Shown here in pieces: positions 47,152 through 60,553 of a DNA stretch of 64,000 nt. The stretch is from assembly GCF_030463535.1 (NCBI RefSeq), contig NC_132896.1, positions 32,710,977 to 32,774,976 of the forward strand. Reading direction: 5' to 3'. The stretch comes from Salminus brasiliensis (taxonomy: Eukaryota; Chordata; Actinopteri; Characiformes; Bryconidae). Positions within the stretch are counted from its first letter, which is position 1, and the number at the start of each line of letters is the position of its first letter. The notes beneath the pieces are model-generated. The model worked only from the letters and a program-made list of their open reading frames with translations, was not told where the DNA came from and ran no database searches. The position numbers and the translations under genes were made by a program.

Positions 47152-47489
47152 TGAAGCCAAAGCCAATTACACAACAGGAAATATATATGTATTTTTATAT
47201 AATGTTAAAATATGTATATATGTGTAATATGTTTTCCATGTTCTGTATACAAATTATTACTCACACTTGTATTGTTTGCAGCTGGATTACACTGGCAAAT
47301 CAAGTCAACTGTAAAACTGCACTATTTCTTTTCTTGTTTTCACTTCTGATTATGAGCTAATTTCATTAATCCATAATTTGTTTTGTAATATTTGTAAATA
47401 AAATATAGTCAGGCCTTAAAAATGAAAACTCACAGCACCACTTTACCCTTGGTTCTCAAGAAACTCCAGAGGTTGAACGTACGCTATGT
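47152..47489. other. 3' flank of NITR H
   Basis: AT-rich, with the candidate polyadenylation signal noted for gene H. Nothing else seen. Confidence 0.5.
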
Positions 47490-48180
47490 GTCAGTTCCCC
47501 TTGAGCCACCAAAACAGCCCTGACCCATCAAACCACCAAAACAGCCCTGACCCATCAAGCCACCAAAACAGCCCTGACCCATCAAACCACCAAAACAGCC
47601 CTGACCCATCGAGCCACCAAAACAGCCCTGACCCATCGAGCCACCAAAACAGCCCTGACCCATCAAACCACCAAAACAGCCCTGACCCATCGAGCCCCCA
47701 AAACAGCCCTGACCCATCGAGCCACCAAAACAGCCCTGACCCGTCAAGTCCCCAAAACAGCCCTGACCCATCGAGCCACCAAAACAGCCCTGACCCGTCG
47801 AGCCACCAAAACAGCCCTGACCCATTGAGCCACCAAAACAACCCTGACCCATCGAGCCACCAAAACAGCCCTGATCCGTTAAGCCACCAAAACAGCCCTG
47901 ACCGGTCGAGCCACCAAAACAGCCCTGACCCATCAAGCCCCCAAAACAGCCCTGACCCATCGAGCCACCAAAACAGCCCTGACCCATCGAGCCCCCAAAA
48001 CAGCCCTGACCCATCGAGCCACCAAAACAGCCCTGACCCATCGAGCCACCAAAACAGCCCTGACCTGTCGAGCCACCAAAACAGTCCTGATCCATTAAGC
48101 CACCAAAACAACCCTGATCCATTAAGCCACCAAAACAGCCCTGACCCGTCGAGCCACCAAAACAGCCCTGACCCGTCCAG
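47490..48180. repeat. 27-bp minisatellite, about 25 copies
   Basis: The unit is ccaccaaaacagccctgacc followed by catcgag, with small variants (cccatcaaa, ccgtcga, cccccaaaac). Because the unit length is a multiple of three and lacks stops, long frames stay open on both strands (for example S-H-Q-N-S-P-D-P-S repeats); I regard these as artefacts of the repeat, not as proteins. It sits at the place of the 3' end of a Tc1-like element whose 5' half follows at 48180-48470 on the minus strand. Confidence 0.85.
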
Positions 48181-48470
48181 GCAAGAACTCTGCAAGAGTG
48201 AAGGTGTCCTGTAGTATCTGGCTCCAAGACATTAGCAGCAGATCCTTTAAGTCCTGTAAGTTGTGTGGTGGGGCCTCCAAGGATTGGATTGCATGGACCT
48301 TTTTTGGTAGGTACTGACCACTGCATACCAGGAACACACCACAAGACCTGCCTGGTGTGACCACAAGACCTTTTGGAGATGTTCTGACCCAGTCACAATT
48401 CGGTTCTTGTCGCTGATTCTCACGCTTGCCCAATTTTTGGTCACCTTCTTGAACTGACTGTTTGCTTGCT
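48180..48470 (-). pseudogene. Tc1-like transposase fragment
   Basis: The minus frame around 48247-48444 contains VVCSWYAVVSTYQKRS, matching the helix-turn-helix part of Tc1-like transposases, and then joins directly to sequence from the transposase 3' end. This is an internally deleted, dead copy. Confidence 0.65.
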
Positions 48471-49929: not shown

Positions 49930-50036
49930 AGTGATTTTATTTTTTTAAGATTTGATTTTTACTGACCGACTAGATAAAAACTGCTCCTTATCTAGTCGGG
50001 TCAGTAAAAATCAAATCTTAAAAAAATAAAATCACT
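49930..50036. repeat. Near-perfect long hairpin
   Basis: The left arm 49930-49976 (agtgattttatttttttaag and on) is the reverse complement of the right arm 49988-50036 except for one extra G in gtcgggtcag. The loop is 11 bases. It lies 91-197 bases beyond the stop codon of the minus-strand gene, so it may be in that gene's 3' UTR. Confidence 0.9.
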
Positions 50037-50126
50037 ACTTTTTTAAAGTTCAATTTTATTTTCATTGCATTTAACCAACAATATACACATAAAACTATAA
50101 CTAATAAATAATAAAATACACGAGCT

Positions 50127-51291
50127 TTACTCCAACCCGAGACTCGCCAGACCAGTGTAAATAGTCTCCTCTGCTTTTCCTTCTGTCTGACTCGCCTGTG
50201 CATCTTCTCTCTTTCTCCTGAAATCCACCGCAGCGTACTGGACATCATCTTCGGTCTCATCCTGCAGCAAAATTAAACAAACGTATCTTTTTATGGGAAA
50301 TCACAGAAACCTCCCCATGTTTTAACTTTATGTTTTAAGTTTAAGATCTTCACCTGTTCTGACTCCTGCTGCTCACTTTGCTGTTCATGTGTTGAATTGC
50401 AACAAATCACTGAGCTGACCAAATCTGGACGACAGGCAAAAACATTAGAATTCACAAAGCTGAACAAACACCATTGATGGACGGATCATACTGGAGATCT
50501 ATGAGGCTGAACTGCCCTCATAGATCAGATACATCCACATCCAGGAACCTTACTTGTCACTTTGGTGATTCTGTCTGCAGCACCAAGCTTTAGGGAGCAG
50601 AATGGTACCATCCAGTCCTAATAATAAAGGTTCTTCAAAGGGTTCTTTGACAATGCCTTAGAAGAACCACTGTTGCCCTCATAAAATAGCATAACCTTTT
50701 AAAGATCTAAAGAAACGACCTGATGTAAAGGTTCTTCACATTCATACTTCTGTCTATTACCAACACGTCCTTTAATGGAACCAAATAAAAGTGGTTCTTT
50801 CAAGGCATCACCCAAAATCCACTGCAGTTGTGCTTTTTAAGCTGCAGACACTCTCTTTTCTCATAGGAAAATAAAGGTGTGACAAAACGTTCTTTGAAGA
50901 AAACCACATTTCTTTCACTAAACTATGTATGTGAGTGAGAAGAACCTTCCCTCACTTCTTTAAACCCCTAACAGGTTCTTCACTCTCGCATGTCTTTCAC
51001 AAAATGCTTCTGATGGACGATTTACTTTCACTGTACCTTTTTTTCTGGCAGTGTAATGGTGTCCGATTCAGAAGAAATGGATTTATGAGTTTCTCACACT
51101 AAACTCAACCCCTCCCACATTTCTAACTGAAGCAAGTTTCACTTACTGTAAATGCGCTGTCCGAGCTCTCTTTGCTTCTTGGTACATATGAGATATATAT
51201 TTACAATGATAGACATCAGCAAAGCTTCACAGAGGCAGGCGATGATGGGGATGAGGATGGTGGTGTTGGTGCAGTTACTTGAGTCATCCAT
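50127..51291 (-). CDS. Small membrane protein with two ITIM-type motifs, no Ig domain (unrecognised)
   Basis: Three minus-strand exons join in frame into 116 residues: 51147-51291 (ATG to phase 1 donor gtaagt), 50354-50424 and 50127-50261 (stop TAA). All have GT/AG borders. The short ectodomain has two N-glycosylation sequons (NCT, NTT) within 11 residues. One membrane segment follows (about residues 11-36, ILIPIIACLCEALLMSIIVN), with a Glu at residue 22, then TKKQRELGQR. The tail has VQYAAV and TIYTGL, 25 residues apart. In order and character this resembles the NITR tail (LNYAAV, basic linker, LVYSQV), and the exon split (membrane exon, short exon, ITIM exon) is the same. In-frame stops lie just before the ATG, so no leader or Ig exon can be read directly into this exon. 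I do not recognise a named family; it looks like a transmembrane adaptor or a NITR-like gene that lost its Ig exons. Confidence 0.65.
50610..51020. repeat. ggttcttt-type dispersed repeat in intron
   Basis: Contains aaggttcttcaaagggttct, tagaagaaccactgttgccc and gttcttcactctcgcatgtc. Same family as 11600-11960, here in the first coding intron of the minus-strand gene. Confidence 0.5.
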
Positions 51292-51548
51292 TGTTCATCA
51301 TGAATGGCTCAGGTTGAGGGTGTCTGCTCTGGAGGAATACGTAAAACAAACGTGTGAATTAACAGTCGTTTTTTTTTTTTATAGATATTTAAAAAATAAT
51401 AGCAGGATAAAATATTTAGTACTAAATCTAATGTGACTCTGATGGCCAGAAAGGACATTTGTTTATTCATTTATTTATTTATTTACTTATGTTTTTATAT
51501 TTCTTACTTTTGCTTTTTATATTATTGTACACCTATACATATATTGTA

Positions 51549-51595
51549 AATTCTCTTATTGTACATTGTACATTTAGGGGTTTGCTGTATTTTTT

Positions 51596-51670
<75 letters not shown>

Positions 51671-51824
51671 TTGTGAATTTCCCCACTGCGGGACTAATAA
51701 AGGATTATCTTATCTTATCTTATCTTATTTATTTATTTAAATGTTTTTACATTTGTTCCTTTTTTGACATTTTTGTACACCCATACATATATTGCAAATT
51801 TTCTTATTGTGCATTGTACATTTA

Positions 51825-51900
<76 letters not shown>

Positions 51901-51947
51901 AAAAAATACAGCAAACCCCTAAATGTACAATGTACAATAAGAGAATT
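51549..51947. repeat. Large inverted repeat with AT microsatellites
   Basis: The left arm 51549-51600 (ctcttattgtacattgtaca, tttaggggtttgctgtattt) recurs as its reverse complement at 51898-51947. Both arms end in (AT)n runs (51598-51667 and 51828-51898). Between them is a retroelement-like tail: ccccactgcgggactaataa followed by (TTATC)n. Confidence 0.85.
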
Positions 51948-54589
51948 ATATATATATATATATATATATAAATATAAATATAAATAAATATAATACATAT
52001 TTATTTATTTTTATGCTTTTACATTTTTGTACACCTATACATGTATTGTACATTGTGTATTTTGTTTTGTATTTATCTATGGTGTTTTTATTGAAGTATA
52101 TGGTGTTATGGGAATTTTGTTCTGGCAGTGTTTCTGAATGCAATCATACATTTTTAGTTAAAAAGGCATGATATGTTGTTTTTATTATTTTATTAATTTT
52201 GTTTTTAAAATTTAATTTAATTTAGTTTTTTATTATTTTACTGTCCGTGAGAAATAATCATGGTAAGACTCTTGGTAATAAATACATGGTAATAAAGAAA
52301 TTACTCATGTGTTTTAAACAGCATATATAAATAACTTTACTAACAACATGGTCTAACTACTCATTCTATAAAATGTATTTATATTTATTTTTTTTAAGCA
52401 AAAACATCCTTGCTGTTGATATTTTCATTCTAAACCAATTTTAAGGATACAGAAACTTCTGCAAAGTTTTTATATGCTACTATTTATTATCACAAATAAT
52501 AATACAATGCTATATTCAGTATTCGTACATTGCTGCATTATTGCCATTTGTCTGTAATATACGATTTCTCCAATAATGTTTTAATCAACCCTTTTTTAAA
52601 CACAGAGTATGTGGAAGGTGACTCTCACCTAATGTAGCCAAGCATAAACGTAAAAAACAGATTAGAGAAATAGGTAATGAACAAATGATATTGTAAAAAA
52701 ACGTTGAAAACGTTTGTCAATGTTAGTAAAACATTAGTGAACAATACAAGAAATCATCCAATAAAAAAAACATCAAGTGGTCTATGGAAACTGTACTCAC
52801 AAGTATTGCTGACCAGTGGAGCAAAAATGCATAGATGTGTCACGTCTCGAAGGCGGTGGTGTCTGTCTGCCTCATAAAGCTTTAGCCAGTGGTCTACCCC
52901 TCCCATGTTTCCATTTTGTATTAATGCACTCTGGTAAGTGGTCGTCCTTGGTTGTAAGATGGCCTACAGACAGTTTTTAAAGGTATTCTTTAAACTGATT
53001 CCATATTTATGTTTATGTTTTTCAGTGTTTTATAAAACTAAACGTTGCTCAGTTTGACCTGAAATATAGGTGAATCAGTACCGATGTTTTTTTGAGTGAC
53101 GCCACAGAAGAACCTTTTCTGGTTCCATAGAGAAACACTTTTGTAAAATGTGTGGATGAAGAGGATGAAGGAAGTTTAATATTCTTCACTCTGTTTTTCC
53201 CATGGCATCACTCAAAAAGCCATTAGTAGCGACTTCATTTTTAAATGTGTAGCTCTTGGCCCAAATTGAACAGTGGGCTTGGATATGCGGTTCACCTCGA
53301 GTCAGTAGAGTGAGAAGGCCACAATCTTTTAAACCAACTAAACCGAGATTCAGGACTGGAAGCTGGATTTGAAGACATCTGCAATTGTAGAACCCAAGAA
53401 AATGAAAAAGATGATTATTTAAAGGACTATAATTCGTGAGCTCCATGAGTGTGAAGAACCTTTAGTAAAAGGATCTAGAAAAGTTCTGAAGGAAGATCCC
53501 TTAAACTGGTAAACTGGTTCCAAACTGGTTCTCTCTCCAGTTAATTTATGGAACCAACAGCGGCTCTTCTATGGCATCACTTAACCTCTGCTTCTCTGGA
53601 CCATTTAAATCTGGCGTTTGGCCTCATATAAAGAACATTGTTTTTTTTTTTTTTGTTTGTTTCTGCAAAAACGACTTCCTGTACAAAGAGAGTTTACAAA
53701 CTACGAAGTTTAGTTTTGATACTACTAATCCCAAATAGCTAGGAGAAATTAAAAATGCACACCAAGCAAAAGTCCGGGTCTCTGGAGGTTATCGAACCCC
53801 TCATTATACCTTAATGTGTAAGAATGCAGACATGCAAAAATAAATAAATAAATAAATAACCTGTTTAGGTTATTGCTGAGTGTTATTATGGAGTGCTGCT
53901 GCCACCTTGCTGCAGACTGTAGACATGATGGCAAGCTCCAGGAATCCTTTGACTCAAAAATGCTGATGTGACAAAAAATAGCATGGACCAGCAGCACTGT
54001 GCCACTGATAGCATTCTTATTCCACACTGCACTCTATAAGTTCTGAGGTAGGGCCTCCATGGATCACATCAATAAGCTTTAGGTGCAAATTTATTTGTGT
54101 AGCTTTTAACAACTGTTGTTGTCAGATTTGCACAATCAATAATTAGTAAAAATACAAGATATCAACTACATAAGAAAACTTGGGAGGAGCTAAGACTTAC
54201 AAGGGGGACCCGACCCGTCCTCCTCTGATCAGAACTGTTTATAAATTATTGATAAAAGTCACCAAGCATCAAAACTGTTGTACTGCTCATATTCCTAATC
54301 ATAATATAATAATCATGGTGTAGAATAACTGAATATAGTCATAGCAGTGATGGTCAGAGTAATGATGGTTAATAGTGGTGATATTAATAGTGGACAATAG
54401 TTAAGAGTCCATTTAGGTTTTAACATGGTCATTAGGCAGGTAGCAGTGGCAGGAGGGTGTGCAGCTGGTCTGGGTGCATTGGGTGGTGGGGGAGCCTGGT
54501 GGTCGGACTGATGAGTGGCAGCTGGTCTGATGCAGGTGGAGAGGACCCCAGCAGAGGGTCCCAGTCTTCCAGCACTGTCCTTTCTTGAA
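51948..54589. other. Intergenic, repeats only
   Basis: AT-rich to about 52780. The minus strand near 52795-52870 ends in an acttGTGAGT donor and could be an untranslated first exon of the gene at 50127-51291 (speculative). Positions 53095-53590 belong to the ggttcttt-type repeat. No protein-coding exon recognised. Confidence 0.4.
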
Positions 54590-54740
54590 CCACTTTTGGT
54601 AGGTACTGACCACTGAACATCGGGAACTCCCCACAAGACCTGCCTGATGTTCTGGAGATGTTCTGACCCAGTCGTCTAGAACATCACAGTTGGTTCTTGT
54701 CAAAGTGGCTCAGATTCTTACACTTGTCCACTTAATTGCT
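54590..54740 (-). pseudogene. Tc1-like element fragment
   Basis: The minus strand contains gactgggtcagaacatctcc, then ggtcttgtggggagttcccg and gtggtcagtacctaccaaaa, the N-terminal transposase region. A short middle piece of such an element may also lie at 54030-54075. Confidence 0.6.
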
Positions 54741-54889
54741 GCACACCGGTGCATTGCTGTTATCCTTGCTATCCTTGCCCTGAAAGCATCAAGTCTCACT
54801 CTAGAGTTCAATGTCTTAAAAACATGAACACTAGATGGAGCCCTAGATTCCCTGTCACACACTGTGCTGTGTCCTTGCTCTAATAGGAG

Positions 54890-55100
54890 GCATCAATATT
54901 GCTGGTAAAAGTATAAATGCCTTAATAAACTTTTGGAGGTTCTTCAAATGGAGGAACCTCATAAGGTGCATCAAGGAACCTTCAATAAAAGCTTTTAGAA
55001 GAAAAATGTTCCTTTCAGGTTCCTCAAAGCATCTTAAGTGGTTCCTCCACAGTTTCAAATTGAAGAACCCCAGAAAGGTCCTCAAGGAACTTAGAGTTTT
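54890..55100. repeat. ggttcttt-type dispersed repeat
   Basis: Contains ggaggttcttcaaatggagg, gaaccttcaataaaagctt and ttgaagaaccccagaaaggt. Confidence 0.5.
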
Positions 55101-55139
55101 AACAGTGTAGGGTGAGATTGGGCGAGACTGGGGGAATTA

Positions 55140-55560
55140 TGTGTTTTTCTATAAACTGGTTTCATTGCATATTTTTTGGGAGGATATAAAAACAACCGTC
55201 TCTGGGTGTTTTTCTCACTTTTCCAGCTTTAGTGAAGGTGGTGGATTTGTCCTCCTCCACTGCCTCCTGTGGAAAGTGCAGAAACAGCTATGTGGACCAA
55301 GGCCCCATCGGTGTAACTCTACCCCAGGATCAATAACCACCAGATCCCGCTGCGACTATTGCTCCCATTCCCCACCGCTGAAAAGAGCGGCTTGATTTTC
55401 TCACTGCATTCCACGGCCAGTTAAACCAATACAGCGCTGAGCACAAAGTCAACATGGACCTCGGGGGCGGCCAAATTGTAATTCTCAGTACAAATACACA
55501 AAGCTCATCAACAGTTTGGGAGTCAAACAGTGAAGCCAGAGCAGAGGAGAAATAGAAAAT
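55140..55560. other. Low-repeat, GC-richer block of unknown role
   Basis: Includes gaaggtggtggatttgtcct, ccaaggccccatcggtgtaa, cagatcccgctgcgactatt and acctcgggggcggccaaatt. No exon structure that I can name. It stands out from the AT-rich surroundings and is a candidate conserved non-coding element or unrecognised exon. Confidence 0.3.
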
Positions 55561-56279
55561 CACTTGTTTATTACAAAAATATTATTATGATAACACTTAC
55601 ATGAGCACCAATGCAGCAGTACTTGCATTTTTACGGCCTTTGAAGGGATCTTGTGCGATATATGGAGAGGGCAGGGTGGGAAAACAGGTCCTGCCCTGCT
55701 GCTTGACTGTCCTTTGTTTATACTGTGTTTTATAGAAACGTGGTAATCATTCTGCTAGATTGTAAAAAAGATTCATTTTATAGAAATGTCTCTGATACAA
55801 AACACACTTTGCAAATATTGCAAGTAAACCAACTGCACTGCTGTAAATTATGCTCTGCATCTGCAGACTTCAGACAGGAAGCTCTGTAGCAGTACATGAG
55901 ACGAATCAAATACATACTGGAAAATAGATTTGAATAGTAATACAACATCCAATACAAACATAGCCCTTTGTTTCCCCTTCAGTTTCTTCGTCCAGACAGC
56001 TTCTCACTGACATGAGTGATCCATCCTGGGTAAAGTCTTCACAAAATAATCACATTAAAAAGGAATTCCACTGATTTTTCAACATTTTTAACTGGTTAAG
56101 GTGTGAACAGCGTCACTCAAAGTCAGAACTGTTTACAATAGTGATGATATGAACCAGGTGTCCAAAGTGAGAGTTCAAATGCTAACTCACTCAGAAAACT
56201 CACTATTACACAAAATGGTTACAAATATATGACCTGATACCTACAGAGCCCCTGGAAGGCATATTGTGTATTGTTTTTT
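55561..56279. other. Intergenic, nothing recognised
   Basis: Ordinary AT-rich sequence, no gene or repeat recognised. Confidence 0.4.
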
Positions 56280-56725
56280 AGGTAAACCAGACACTATCAG
56301 ATGAGCACCCGATACTATTAGGTCAGCACTAGATACTATGTGTTGAGCACCCGGTACTATGAGATATGCATCCGGGTACTATGTGGTATGCACCAGATAC
56401 TATGCGTTGAGCACCCGGTACTATGAGATGAGCACCAGATGCTATGTGGTATGCACCAGATACTATGTGGTGAGCACTTGATACTACCAGGTGAGCACGA
56501 GATACTACCAGGTGAGCACCCGGTACTATGGGATGAGCACCAGATACTATGTGGTGAGCACCAGATACTACCAGATACTATGTAGTGAGCACTAGCTATT
56601 ATGTGGTGAGCACCAGAGAGTATCAAGTGAGTACGAGTAACTATGCCATGTGGTGAGCACTAGATATTATGTGGTGAGCACTAGATACTACCAGGTGAGT
56701 ACCAGATACTATGTGGTAAACACCC
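56280..56725. repeat. 21-bp degenerate minisatellite
   Basis: The unit is approximately tatgtggtgagcaccagatac, with many variants (ggtgagcacccggtactatg, gagatgagcaccagatact). About 20 imperfect copies. The minus-strand frame 56357-56626 is a product of the repeat. Confidence 0.8.
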
Positions 56726-56994
56726 AATAGACCAGGGGAAAACAATTGCTCACCATATAGTATCAGGTGCTCACCACATAGTACCAAGTGCTCTTCACAT
56801 AGTATTGGGTGCATAGTATAGAAACCTGCTCGATTCTTTACTGATTATTTTTTCAGTTAGATTAGGTACATAGCAGATGTACCTACAAATAAAATGGCTG
56901 TATTTGTGTTGAAGTCTAGGGTCAGTAAGTGTCTTTCTCTTTAAACAGATCTGAATGAATGAGTTTACATCACAACTCTGCATCCATTAATTGT

Positions 56995-57220
56995 GGTTGG
57001 TGTGGCGCAACAGATAACACCACTACCTGACAGTGAGCTACTACACCATGTGGGAGACTGGGGTTCGATTCCCTGTCTGGGTGGCTGTGCTGCGCTACAC
57101 CAATAAGAGTCCTTGGGCAAGACTCCTAACACTACATTGGCCCGCCTCTGTAATACCAGTAACCGTGTAAGTCGCTCTGGATAAGAGCGTCAGCTAAATG
57201 CCGTAAATGTAAATGTAAAT
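56995..57220 (+). repeat. tRNA-type SINE, second family, full length
   Basis: ggtgtggcgcaacagataac, a box B-like ggggttcgattccctgtctg, ataagagtccttgggcaaga and an end reading ctggataagagcgtcagcta then aatgccgtaaatgt. The most complete copy. Confidence 0.8.
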
Positions 57221-57524
57221 TAATTCTGCATAGATTTTAAACAATCAATGGAATTCCCCTTTAAGAAAGAAAGTAAAACACCACAGTATGTGTTGATAAT
57301 AGACTGCTATCGAAGTTAAGAACATGTAAACATTCACATCATCATAGTCACATATTCTAATAATGAAAAAATATCAAATATATGTGTACATCACCTCTAT
57401 TATAGCTGTTTTATATATATATAGTCATCTGGGAATATCATGGCCTCCTCTGGTTTGGATTGAACTGGGCCTATTATATGAGCTCCATTTCCCATTTAGC
57501 TTTTCTTCACCCTATTCTTCAACG

Positions 57525-57955
57525 CGCAGGACCCCCCAGGACTGACCACTATAGAGCAGGTAGGTAGTATTTGGGTGGTGGTGGTGAGTGTGTTAGTGTG
57601 TGTTGCTCATAGACTGTCCACTCTATTAGAGTCCACCTTGTAGTTGTAAATTCAGAGAAAGAAGCTTATCTGCTGCTGCACAGTCTGTGGTGGTCATCCT
57701 CTATTCCTTCATCAGTGCCAACAGGATGCTGTAGGCTGGATATTTCTGGTTGGTGGACTATTCTCAGTCCAGCAGCACTGCTGTGTCTGATCCACTCATA
57801 CTAGCGCAACACACACTACTAACACACACACACTCACCACCACCTTGTCAGTCAGTGTCTCTGCTGTGCTGAGAATGCTGACCCACCACCCAAATACTAC
57901 AGTCTGCTCTGTGGTGGTCAGTCCTGTGGGGTCCTGACCGTTGAAGAACAGGGTG
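57525..57955. repeat. MITE-like element with long inverted ends
   Basis: The left end (ggaccccccaggactgacca, then gtagtatttgggtggtggtg) is the inverse of the right end (ccaccacccaaatactacag, then ggtcagtcctgtggggtcc). The middle contains ttggtggactattctcagtc and tgctgtgtctgatccactca. No coding capacity. Confidence 0.7.
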
Positions 57956-57999
57956 AAAGGAGGCTAACTATGTCTTGACCACACGTCTTCTGTGGGCCA

Positions 58000-58110
58000 T
58001 TTCACACTTTTCTGACATCATACTGTTGTTTCATGGTGAATGGACCAATAGAAATGCTCCAAAATGACTAGGATTATAAACTTTGTCCATTTTTATGCAA
58101 AACATATTCT
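58000..58110. repeat. Dispersed repeat, family unknown
   Basis: Contains ggaccaatagaaatgctcca, then aaatgactagg, matching 27850-27890. Confidence 0.4.
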
Positions 58111-58339
58111 CAGTCTATTGCAAATACACACAACACTCTTTCCACCCTGAGAGTTTCCAACATGAACGCTTCACTGGGTCACTCGTGCCATTTAGCGGTC
58201 ACTTCACCGCTCATGGGCAGCATTGTTCAAACTCAGCTTCCTGACCTACAGCATGTTGGTGGTCCTAACCAGAGGCCCCATCGCCCACGTGAGGCAGGGC
58301 AGCAGCATTGGCTTAGTGAGGGAGGTGCAGGTAAGCCGG

Positions 58340-60553
58340 TCAGCACTGGTAGTGGAAATGTTGGTGCACTTTTCCATCCACGTGTGCGTGCGAGTGCGTG
58401 TGGGTGTGTGTGTGCATGTCCGTATACACTTTGGAATAAACCTTAGGGGCCGGAGTTCCGATCCCTATGAATCTCTGGACGGGGGAGTCAGGGCTGCTGC
58501 TGCTCGGCGAGCTGGTGTCCTTGTCCAGGGCGTGGTGGTCTCGGTGGGGTGTGGATCGGGGTGGGAGGGCGCTCTGCCTTAGCCGACTGTGGCACAGCCA
58601 CAGCACAATGGTGCCCATCATGAGGAGAGCAGCCGCCGGAATGCCGATGATCAGTGGCCAGGGAAGACCCGAGCTCAGGTGGGCAGGGGACACCGGCTTC
58701 TCCACCTGAGGATCTACACAAATACAGAGACGGAGTCGTTAGAGAATCCTTACAGCTTCGCTGTGAATGGGTGGGGCTAAGCTGCTATAGGCAGATAGAG
58801 TGGGTGGGGTGGGGGTGGAGTGGGGGGTGTAGAGGTTGTTAGCCACCCACCTGGAAGTACAGAAAGATAGGCACTGCGGAAACTGTAGCCCATGGTGTTT
58901 GCTCCCAGGCAGATGTACATCCCTGCGTCCTCATCGCGGGCCTTCACGATGGCCAGCTTGTTGAGGTAGGAACCATCAGGCCTGGACCACACCTCACCTG
59001 TGGGGAACACCATGAAGTGCTGACCCCCAACCTCCAGTGTGGAGTTATAGCGGCTCTCAGTGCCTGGTTCAACACGCTTCAGCCACTGGATCACCGGCTT
59101 CACGTCACTGTGGACCTTACACTGGAAAGATGCAGTGCCTCCAAACTCAACCGTGGTGTTGACCGGGTGTGTGCCCGTCAGGATAGGCTTAGAGTTTGTG
59201 CGCTCTGGGGAAGAGAGAAGGGAAAATCAGAGACGTTCCAGAGACAGGAACTTTGATACCCTTAGTTTTGCTAAGAACCTCAACCACTCCAAGAACCATT
59301 TGGATGCTTAAAAGGTTTTTGCCTGGCTTTAGAGGTAGTATAAAGGAAAACCTTTAGTAGGTAGAACTACACTGATCAGCCATAACATTAATACCACCTG
59401 ACTAAAACTAAATAGGTCCCCCTTTTGCCGCCACAACAGTTCTAAGCATTTCAGACATGGACTCCACAAGACCTCTAAAGGCATCCTGTGGTATCTGGCA
59501 CCAGGTTACTAGCAATCCAATCTTACTCACTGTAAACAGTCTCTAACAGACACCTAAACTCACCAATGACATCCACCCTGTAGGTGTAGTTGATAAATCC
59601 AGCTGTGTTGGACACGCGGCAGGTGTAGCGGCCGCTGTCCTGCGGCTGCAGGTTTTTCAGAGTGAGCGTCCACTGCTGCCGTTTGCCCCGGGTGGGGGCG
59701 GGCAGCTGCATCTGGTCCTTCCACCATGTGATGGCCGGGTCAGGGGACCCATTGGCTAAGCATTTCAGCCGCACAGAGCTGCCCACAGGCTGCTCCCGAA
59801 ACCGCCTGCGCATCTTCTCCGGCTTGCTGAAGCGGGGCTTCGCTGTAAACACAGTTGAGTTCAGTTTATTTTTCACTCAGTGATATCAGAAAGAACAGGA
59901 CTATGTCCAAATGTTTGTGGACACCTGTAATTCTAATGAATGCATTCAGCTACTTTAAGTTGCACTTACTGCTAACACAGATGTGCAAATGCACACAAAC
60001 ACATACACACACACACAGCTTGTCTAGTTTCTTGTAGAGAAGTACTGCCAATAGAATAGGACTCTCTGGAGTAGATACATGAACCCACTGGCACCATGCT
60101 GCCTAATGCCAGACATGGGATGGAGGGGTGAGAGAACTGTGTTTTCTGGAATGATTGATGGTGCTCCATCCAATACTTTTGGGATGAGTGAGCCTCAAGC
60201 AACTAAACCTGATGTTCTTCGATGTATTCTTTTCACTGCAACCCCCCAAAAAATAAAGGGGTATGGGAACTAGCCGAATTCCGGCTCCTGACGTTTGTGT
60301 CTGTCGTTTGTGCTGCTATTATACATTTGACTGTGGAATCGAGGAACTTAGCCACAACTACAAGCTGAGAGACATTGGAAAGGGTGTGTATCTTGTGGTA
60401 GAAAAGAAAGTGGTCTAAAGAAAGAGACAGTTGGGGAATGTGTATGTATGTGTGGTGTCTTACCCCATGGCTCCCCTGTCGGATCCTGCAGTGTAGGTTC
60501 AACAGTAGGTTCCTCGAGTGAAGGAGGCTTGTTTTCAGGCACTGTAGCATCAC
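58340..60553 (-). CDS. fgfrl1: FGF receptor-like 1, last four exons (5' part outside the window)
   Basis: Minus-strand exons: 60464-60553 (acidic linker), 59564-59842 (second Ig domain), 58851-59204 (third Ig domain) and 58340-58713 (membrane and tail, stop TGA). All joins keep frame. Linker: [17 protein letters not shown]. Ig2: [24 protein letters not shown] and [12 protein letters not shown]. Ig3: [23 protein letters not shown] and [20 protein letters not shown]. The membrane segment is [20 protein letters not shown]. The cytoplasmic tail has [19 protein letters not shown] and ends [11 protein letters not shown]. These match FGFRL1, a receptor that binds FGFs and heparin but has no kinase and ends in a His-rich tail. 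The first Ig exon and signal peptide are not seen up to 64000 and should lie beyond. Dispersed repeats fill its introns. Confidence 0.95.
59370..59520. repeat. Tc1-like element end in an fgfrl1 intron
   Basis: cactgatcagccataacatt, then ggtcccccttttgccgccac and ccacaagacctctaaaggca. Same end as at 61015-61130. Confidence 0.6.
59900..60200 (+). repeat. Non-autonomous DNA transposon copy in an fgfrl1 intron
   Basis: gtccaaatgtttgtggacac, gagaagtactgccaatagaa, taggactctctggagtagat and ccatccaatacttttgggat. Same family as 31490-31995. Confidence 0.7.

Follow-up and report, generated by a model that had tools for sequence, protein, structure and literature searches.

A compact candidate gene lies at the edge of a cluster of novel immune-type receptor (NITR) genes in Salminus brasiliensis and has a reading frame for a 116-residue, leaderless, single-pass membrane protein with a putative N-out topology. 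We hold with moderate confidence that this is a real gene and that its product is a transmembrane adaptor with inhibitory function, comparable to LST1 or SIT; it probably acts as an adaptor rather than as a receptor. The candidate was found in a window of 64,000 nucleotides (C19:32710977-32774976, from a genome of 1.07 Gb), where the last NITR lies on one side of it and fgfrl1, which has the same orientation, on the other. The reading of the locus and a search for Ig domains support the original prediction of an ITIM-bearing membrane protein without an Ig domain beside a NITR cluster and fgfrl1. The features of a protein working like an ITIM transmembrane adaptor are present, namely a very short outer part, one helix and an ITIM tail without a ligand-binding domain, with a second motif that is ITIM-like only.

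Three exons on the minus strand join into a frame of 116 amino acids with intron phases 1 and then 0 (Table 1), and both the exon joins and the frame originally proposed were reproduced. The intact joined frame, the splice signals, the strong start context (ACAATGG) and a polyadenylation signal support a real gene, which we presume to be expressed. The donor of exon 2, gtgaag, is imperfect and counts against this. Any exon reading in frame into exon 1 from upstream meets a stop because of the in-frame TGA ahead of the start codon. No Ig domain was found on the minus strand from 51292 to fgfrl1 (Pfam, E values up to 1, three frames, searched over 51292-60000). The sole Ig matches on that strand between 51292 and 60000 fall on fgfrl1 exons, and apart from these Pfam matched only a low-complexity repeat near 56.4-56.6 kb (PF21300). 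The Pfam search up to fgfrl1, together with the stop ahead of the start codon, showed no extracellular Ig domain of V or I type, as NITRs have, belonging to the candidate; neither a leader nor a relic V or I exon was seen upstream.

Table 1. Positions of candidate gene features within the window
Feature	Position	Strand	Description
Exon 1	51147..51291	-	145 nt; ATG, 11-residue N-terminus, membrane helix, KKQR; ends ACA/gtaagt, phase 1
Exon 2, C1-like	50354..50424	-	71 nt, juxtamembrane tail; ctgtcgtccag/A...CAG/gtgaag; phase 1 to phase 0
Exon 3, C2-like	50127..50261	-	135 nt with stop codon; ttgctgcag/G; both tyrosine motifs
In-frame TGA	51295..51297	-	two codons upstream of the candidate ATG
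AATAAA polyadenylation signal	50055..50060	-	begins 66 nt past the stop codon
Membrane helix ILIPIIACLCEALLMSIIVNIYLIC	51184..51258	-	about residues 12-36, by hydropathy; best 21-residue KD mean 2.48
Glu22 codon	51226..51228	-	11th helix residue; position by arithmetic
VQYAAV, strict ITIM, Tyr81	50226..50243	-	
TIYTGL, ITIM-like, Tyr107	50148..50165	-	

The protein begins with MDDSSNCTNTT, continues with a helix of about 25 residues and TKKQR, and ends in a tail with VQYAAV and TIYTGL. It has no signal peptide. The helix contains Asn31, Cys19, Cys21, Cys36 and Glu22, the last of which lies inside the hydropathy-defined segment, as expected from the earlier description of a buried Glu. The N-terminus is acidic and the helix is followed by the basic KKQR, which under the positive-inside rule favours an N-out topology. 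The tiny outer part had been called glycosylatable; its 11 residues are confirmed, but glycosylation is doubtful because N6 and N9 sit only 6 and 3 residues ahead of the helix, and oligosaccharyltransferase normally needs a greater distance. A counter-example is murine LST1, glycosylated despite its short outer segment according to PMC8111073. Dimers linked by a disulphide could form through the outer Cys7, and palmitoylation could take place at Cys36, on the inner face of the membrane. Both tail motifs were located as predicted (Table 1). VQYAAV is strict by the usual ITIM rule, S/I/V/L-x-Y-x-x-I/V/L. TIYTGL begins with T, which makes it ITIM-like in the terms of PMC2442602, and the lack of a second strict ITIM counts against an adaptor. 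The two tyrosines are 26 residues apart. In the proposed mechanism, Src-family kinases would phosphorylate both tyrosines (Tyr81 and Tyr107), the tail, once modified at both, would recruit SHP-1/SHP-2 in the manner of LST1 and SIT, and these phosphatases would damp nearby activating receptors.

A genome-wide tail search placed NITR tails from C19:32586988 to 32752524. Of the 14 NITR tail matches, 11 are on the plus strand of the C19 cluster and two on C9; the remaining one, weak and on the minus strand of the C19 cluster at C19:32678097 (L068), reads as a NITR tail. A second NITR cluster on C9, near 24.54-24.61 Mb, has six tail matches; in two of its genes, V- and I-like frames were recognised by eye. 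Within the window, the tail search found tails at only four places and none after the NITRs at ~16363, 27200, 44413 or ~33.7 kb; the helix exons at the first three of these positions are of another type (SLGLALGL.LF.NI), ending in GVCSG or in GICSG before gtgag. The fgfrl1 gene is on the minus strand with its last exons at ~58.3-59.9 kb of the window, and another Ig-like exon lies ~18 kb beyond them. Its name rests on the Ig matches, a His-rich end and known synteny rather than on a database match. Synteny of NITR and FGFRL1 is described for stickleback and for chromosomes 14 of zebrafish and 10 of medaka in PMC2442602.

Several repeats flank the candidate. An inverted repeat at 51520-51976 (147-nt arms, 93% complementary, AT-rich) starts ~230 bases upstream of the ATG and looks like a mobile-element insertion in the candidate's presumed promoter region. 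A near-perfect palindrome, seen by eye, occupies ~49932-50037 shortly past the polyadenylation signal. About 1.9 kb beyond the 3' end, an open frame of 245 aa on the plus strand (47477-48214) consists of tandem HQNSPDPSS units and is probably a minisatellite. A UnaL2 LINE 3' element is found on the plus strand at 57154-57207 (Rfam RF00436, 56.2 bits). Elsewhere in the genome, 14 matches to a YAAVNF-type pattern are clustered on C29 at 3.73-4.95 Mb (L070-L072), and the three loci read there look by eye like CD22-like multi-Ig ITIM receptors.

Descent from a NITR, one of two readings offered originally, is a tentative and weakly supported possibility. It would combine NITR helix, C1 and C2 exons, minus the leader, V and I exons, with a start codon gained in the helix exon, leaving a ligand-free inhibitory stub; such an origin is compatible with the adaptor function proposed here. 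The candidate's place at the fgfrl1 edge of the NITR cluster and the minus-strand NITR tail within that cluster are consistent with it, and the zebrafish Nitr9 splice form that lacks a V exon offers a partial parallel for a NITR whose ectodomain is reduced (PMC3463160). That the Pfam search upstream showed no relic V or I exon counts against it. Intron phases are also shared. In the NITR neighbours read directly, the helix-C1 junction is in phase 1 and the C1-C2 junction in phase 0, as in the candidate, and a C1 exon search fixed to those phases found the exon in 8 of 12 C19 NITRs, the other four giving no match to its criteria. The claim that the exon split mirrors that of the NITRs holds for the succession of phase 1, short exon and phase 0, but not for length, the candidate exon being 71 nt and those of the eight NITRs 53 nt (four genes), 47 nt (one) or 44 nt (three). 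NITRs are not alone in having phase 0 ahead of the tail exon: the one CD22-like gene read on C29 (labelled by eye) has phase 2, a 46-nt exon and phase 0.

The tail does not strengthen the case for this origin. Against a profile built from 18 NITR tails, the candidate tail scored 12.0 bits, a value equalled or exceeded by 207 of 500 shuffles that kept both ITIM octamers and by none of 441 scored full shuffles (of 500 made). Three CD22-like tails scored 11.6-14.2 bits on this profile, versus 19.9-72.9 bits for held-out NITR tails. Homology to the NITR C2 exon was therefore not found at 12.0 bits, a score within those of the motif-keeping shuffles. The earlier argument from a tail that mirrors NITR tails fails as evidence of descent, since motif-keeping shuffles and CD22-like tails do equally well and the layout is not NITR-specific. 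Tail homology was rejected as proof of NITR descent, there being no resemblance beyond the two ITIM cores.

The helix exon carries more signal. It scored 10.7 bits against a profile of 13 NITR helix exons and 13.0 bits against one of 18, with 4 and 2 of 1,000 shuffles, respectively, scoring as well and decoys reaching -1.0 to 2.5 bits. Omitting the WNIT-type exons lowers the score to 2.9 bits, and omitting the C9 exons lowers it to 2.3 bits; a CD22-like helix reaches 10.0 and 2.5 bits, respectively, against these two reduced sets. In pairwise comparisons, the best NITR match was reached by 43 of 1,000 shuffles (family-wise), and the non-NITR helix of L014 outscores every NITR in raw comparison with the candidate. 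The helix exon is thus a weak and fragile hint of NITR descent, not proof, and the NITR-derived reading gains from the shuffle counts and loses from the fall to 2-3 bits on removal of a group.

A dead remnant or a chance assembly, in which the exons yield no stable transcript or protein, is unlikely but deserves weight. We scanned for an exon with ATG, helix and basic residues, a 40-100 nt exon and a tail exon with two ITIMs, all consistent in splice sites and phase; the criteria were post hoc, set with the candidate already seen. By these post hoc criteria, the real window holds one match to the layout and 150 dinucleotide-shuffled windows hold none. The window's NITR genes escape the scan, presumably because a start codon was demanded in the helix exon. 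A scan for the tail only gave 2 frames in the window; the 60 shuffles yielded 24 in total, a mean of 0.4, with at least one in 18 of them. Such frames are common in shuffles, so the tail alone is weak evidence, and their rate of 0.4 per shuffled window is what an assembly by chance would draw on. A remnant would also fit with a gene that is a singleton in searches of its own genome. Against this stands the joint integrity of three frames, splice sites, start, helix and polyadenylation signal, together with the absence of the full layout from the shuffled windows.

Glu22 is left unexplained by a plain adaptor. Conceivably, though we think it quite improbable, the protein is an inhibitory subunit whose Glu22 pairs with a basic residue (Lys/Arg) in an activating-type receptor's helix; ligand binding would then bring in phosphatases rather than Syk/ZAP-70, a mirror image of DAP12. 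The position of Glu22 as 11th helix residue agrees with this; we know of no ITIM-chain inhibitory signalling subunit of that kind. The absence of a basic residue from the NITR helices of the window, noted originally, holds for all 8 helix exons looked at, and extends to 11 further helices from both clusters, a set that covers a part of the NITRs. Activating NITRs with a basic helix exist in other fish: medaka has NITRs with Arg in the helix (PMC2442602), and zebrafish Nitr9 pairs with Dap12 and signals through it (PMC2442602, PMC3463160). By analogy with those fish, a basic-helix partner for Glu22 may be present in S. brasiliensis. The full sequence of events, in which a NITR at the fgfrl1 edge shed its Ig ectodomain to become a ligand-free inhibitory subunit whose helix Glu docks basic-helix activating receptors as an "anti-DAP12", is a speculation that we rate as very improbable.

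Membership of a mammalian adaptor family, with a fish SIT or LST1 moved to this locus, is also very improbable. The other original reading, an adaptor of the SIT/TRIM kind, agrees in layout but has no significant profile match. The Pfam SIT family (PF15330) gave a weak match of 12.3 bits with an E value of 0.26, under the cut-off of 27.6 bits, and LST1 (PF05083) is absent among the nine Pfam families listed at E values up to 10, a search in which most matches with E above 0.1 are filtered out. Genome scans with PF15330 (4 matches) and PF05083 (25 matches) listed nothing at the candidate locus and nothing over the cut-off. Separately, 20 of the 25 weak LST1-profile matches lie on C3 at 13.78-19.34 Mb, at the same profile positions and with similar scores, and belong to a large family with a membrane-helix-like segment. 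Searches of the candidate's own genome, in which the best-placed sequences are scored, showed no paralogue: nine whole-protein matches comprise its own three exons and six with E values of at least 0.1, and a search with the tail returned only itself, again among the best scored. The weak matches on C12 (two), C10, C18, C17 and C26 (E values 0.1 to 9, 20-40% identity) were taken as chance. Four PDB matches (E values 0.26-1.5) and one NCBIfam match (E value 0.18) were not significant, and nine pattern matches in viral contigs gave no confirmed relatives. None of the papers found in a collection of open-licence literature describes a fish ITIM adaptor or an Ig-less NITR-like ITIM gene, judged by title and start of abstract. 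The candidate is not filed as LST1, SIT or NITR because the sequence features tested for each were not found in it.

We rejected the view that this is a receptor of the ordinary Ig kind whose upstream exon had been overlooked: the in-frame stop and the stretch to fgfrl1, free of Ig matches in Pfam at E values up to 1, argue strongly against it, and from the nearest acceptor-like site, at 51328, each of the three frames reaches a stop codon ahead of the ATG or overlapping it. An AG at 51279 within exon 1 makes an upstream exon faintly conceivable; its tract is poor (6 of 16 pyrimidines before the site).

If transcribed and conserved, the candidate would be an ITIM adaptor bordering a NITR cluster. 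It would show either the decay of an immune receptor into an adaptor or the repeated origin of small ITIM adaptors. With an acidic residue in the helix of an ITIM chain, it would also offer a direct way to test whether inhibitory signalling subunits exist.

Compared with known systems, the candidate resembles NITRs in its locus and in an exon series of helix, C1 and C2 joined in phases 1 and 0, the last exon carrying two tyrosine motifs. It differs from them in that no leader, V or I exon was found, the tail is alike in the ITIM cores only, the C1 exon measures 71 nt versus 44-53 nt and the helix has an acidic residue. DAP12-type subunits have a tiny outer part and an acidic helix residue, as the candidate does; the candidate differs in having ITIM-type motifs whose tyrosines are 26 residues apart instead of an ITAM, and in having no signal peptide. 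SIT, the SHP2-interacting transmembrane adaptor, is likewise small, with a short outer part and tyrosine motifs, and its profile weakly matches the candidate, but the match is far from significant (12.3 of 27.6 bits) and SIT carries more than two tail tyrosine motifs, whereas the candidate has just two. From LST1 (leukocyte-specific transcript 1), whose helix is not known to have a Glu, the candidate differs by Glu22. It also differs by locus, as LST1 is in MHC class III (PMC8111073) and the candidate lies between the NITR cluster and fgfrl1, with no LST1 profile match listed. LST1 is described as a protein of 97 residues with a very short outer segment bearing a dimerisation Cys, a helix, a palmitoylation site and two ITIMs that bind SHP1/SHP2 (PMC8111073), and a very short outer part with Cys, a single helix and two ITIM-type motifs are what it has in common with the candidate.
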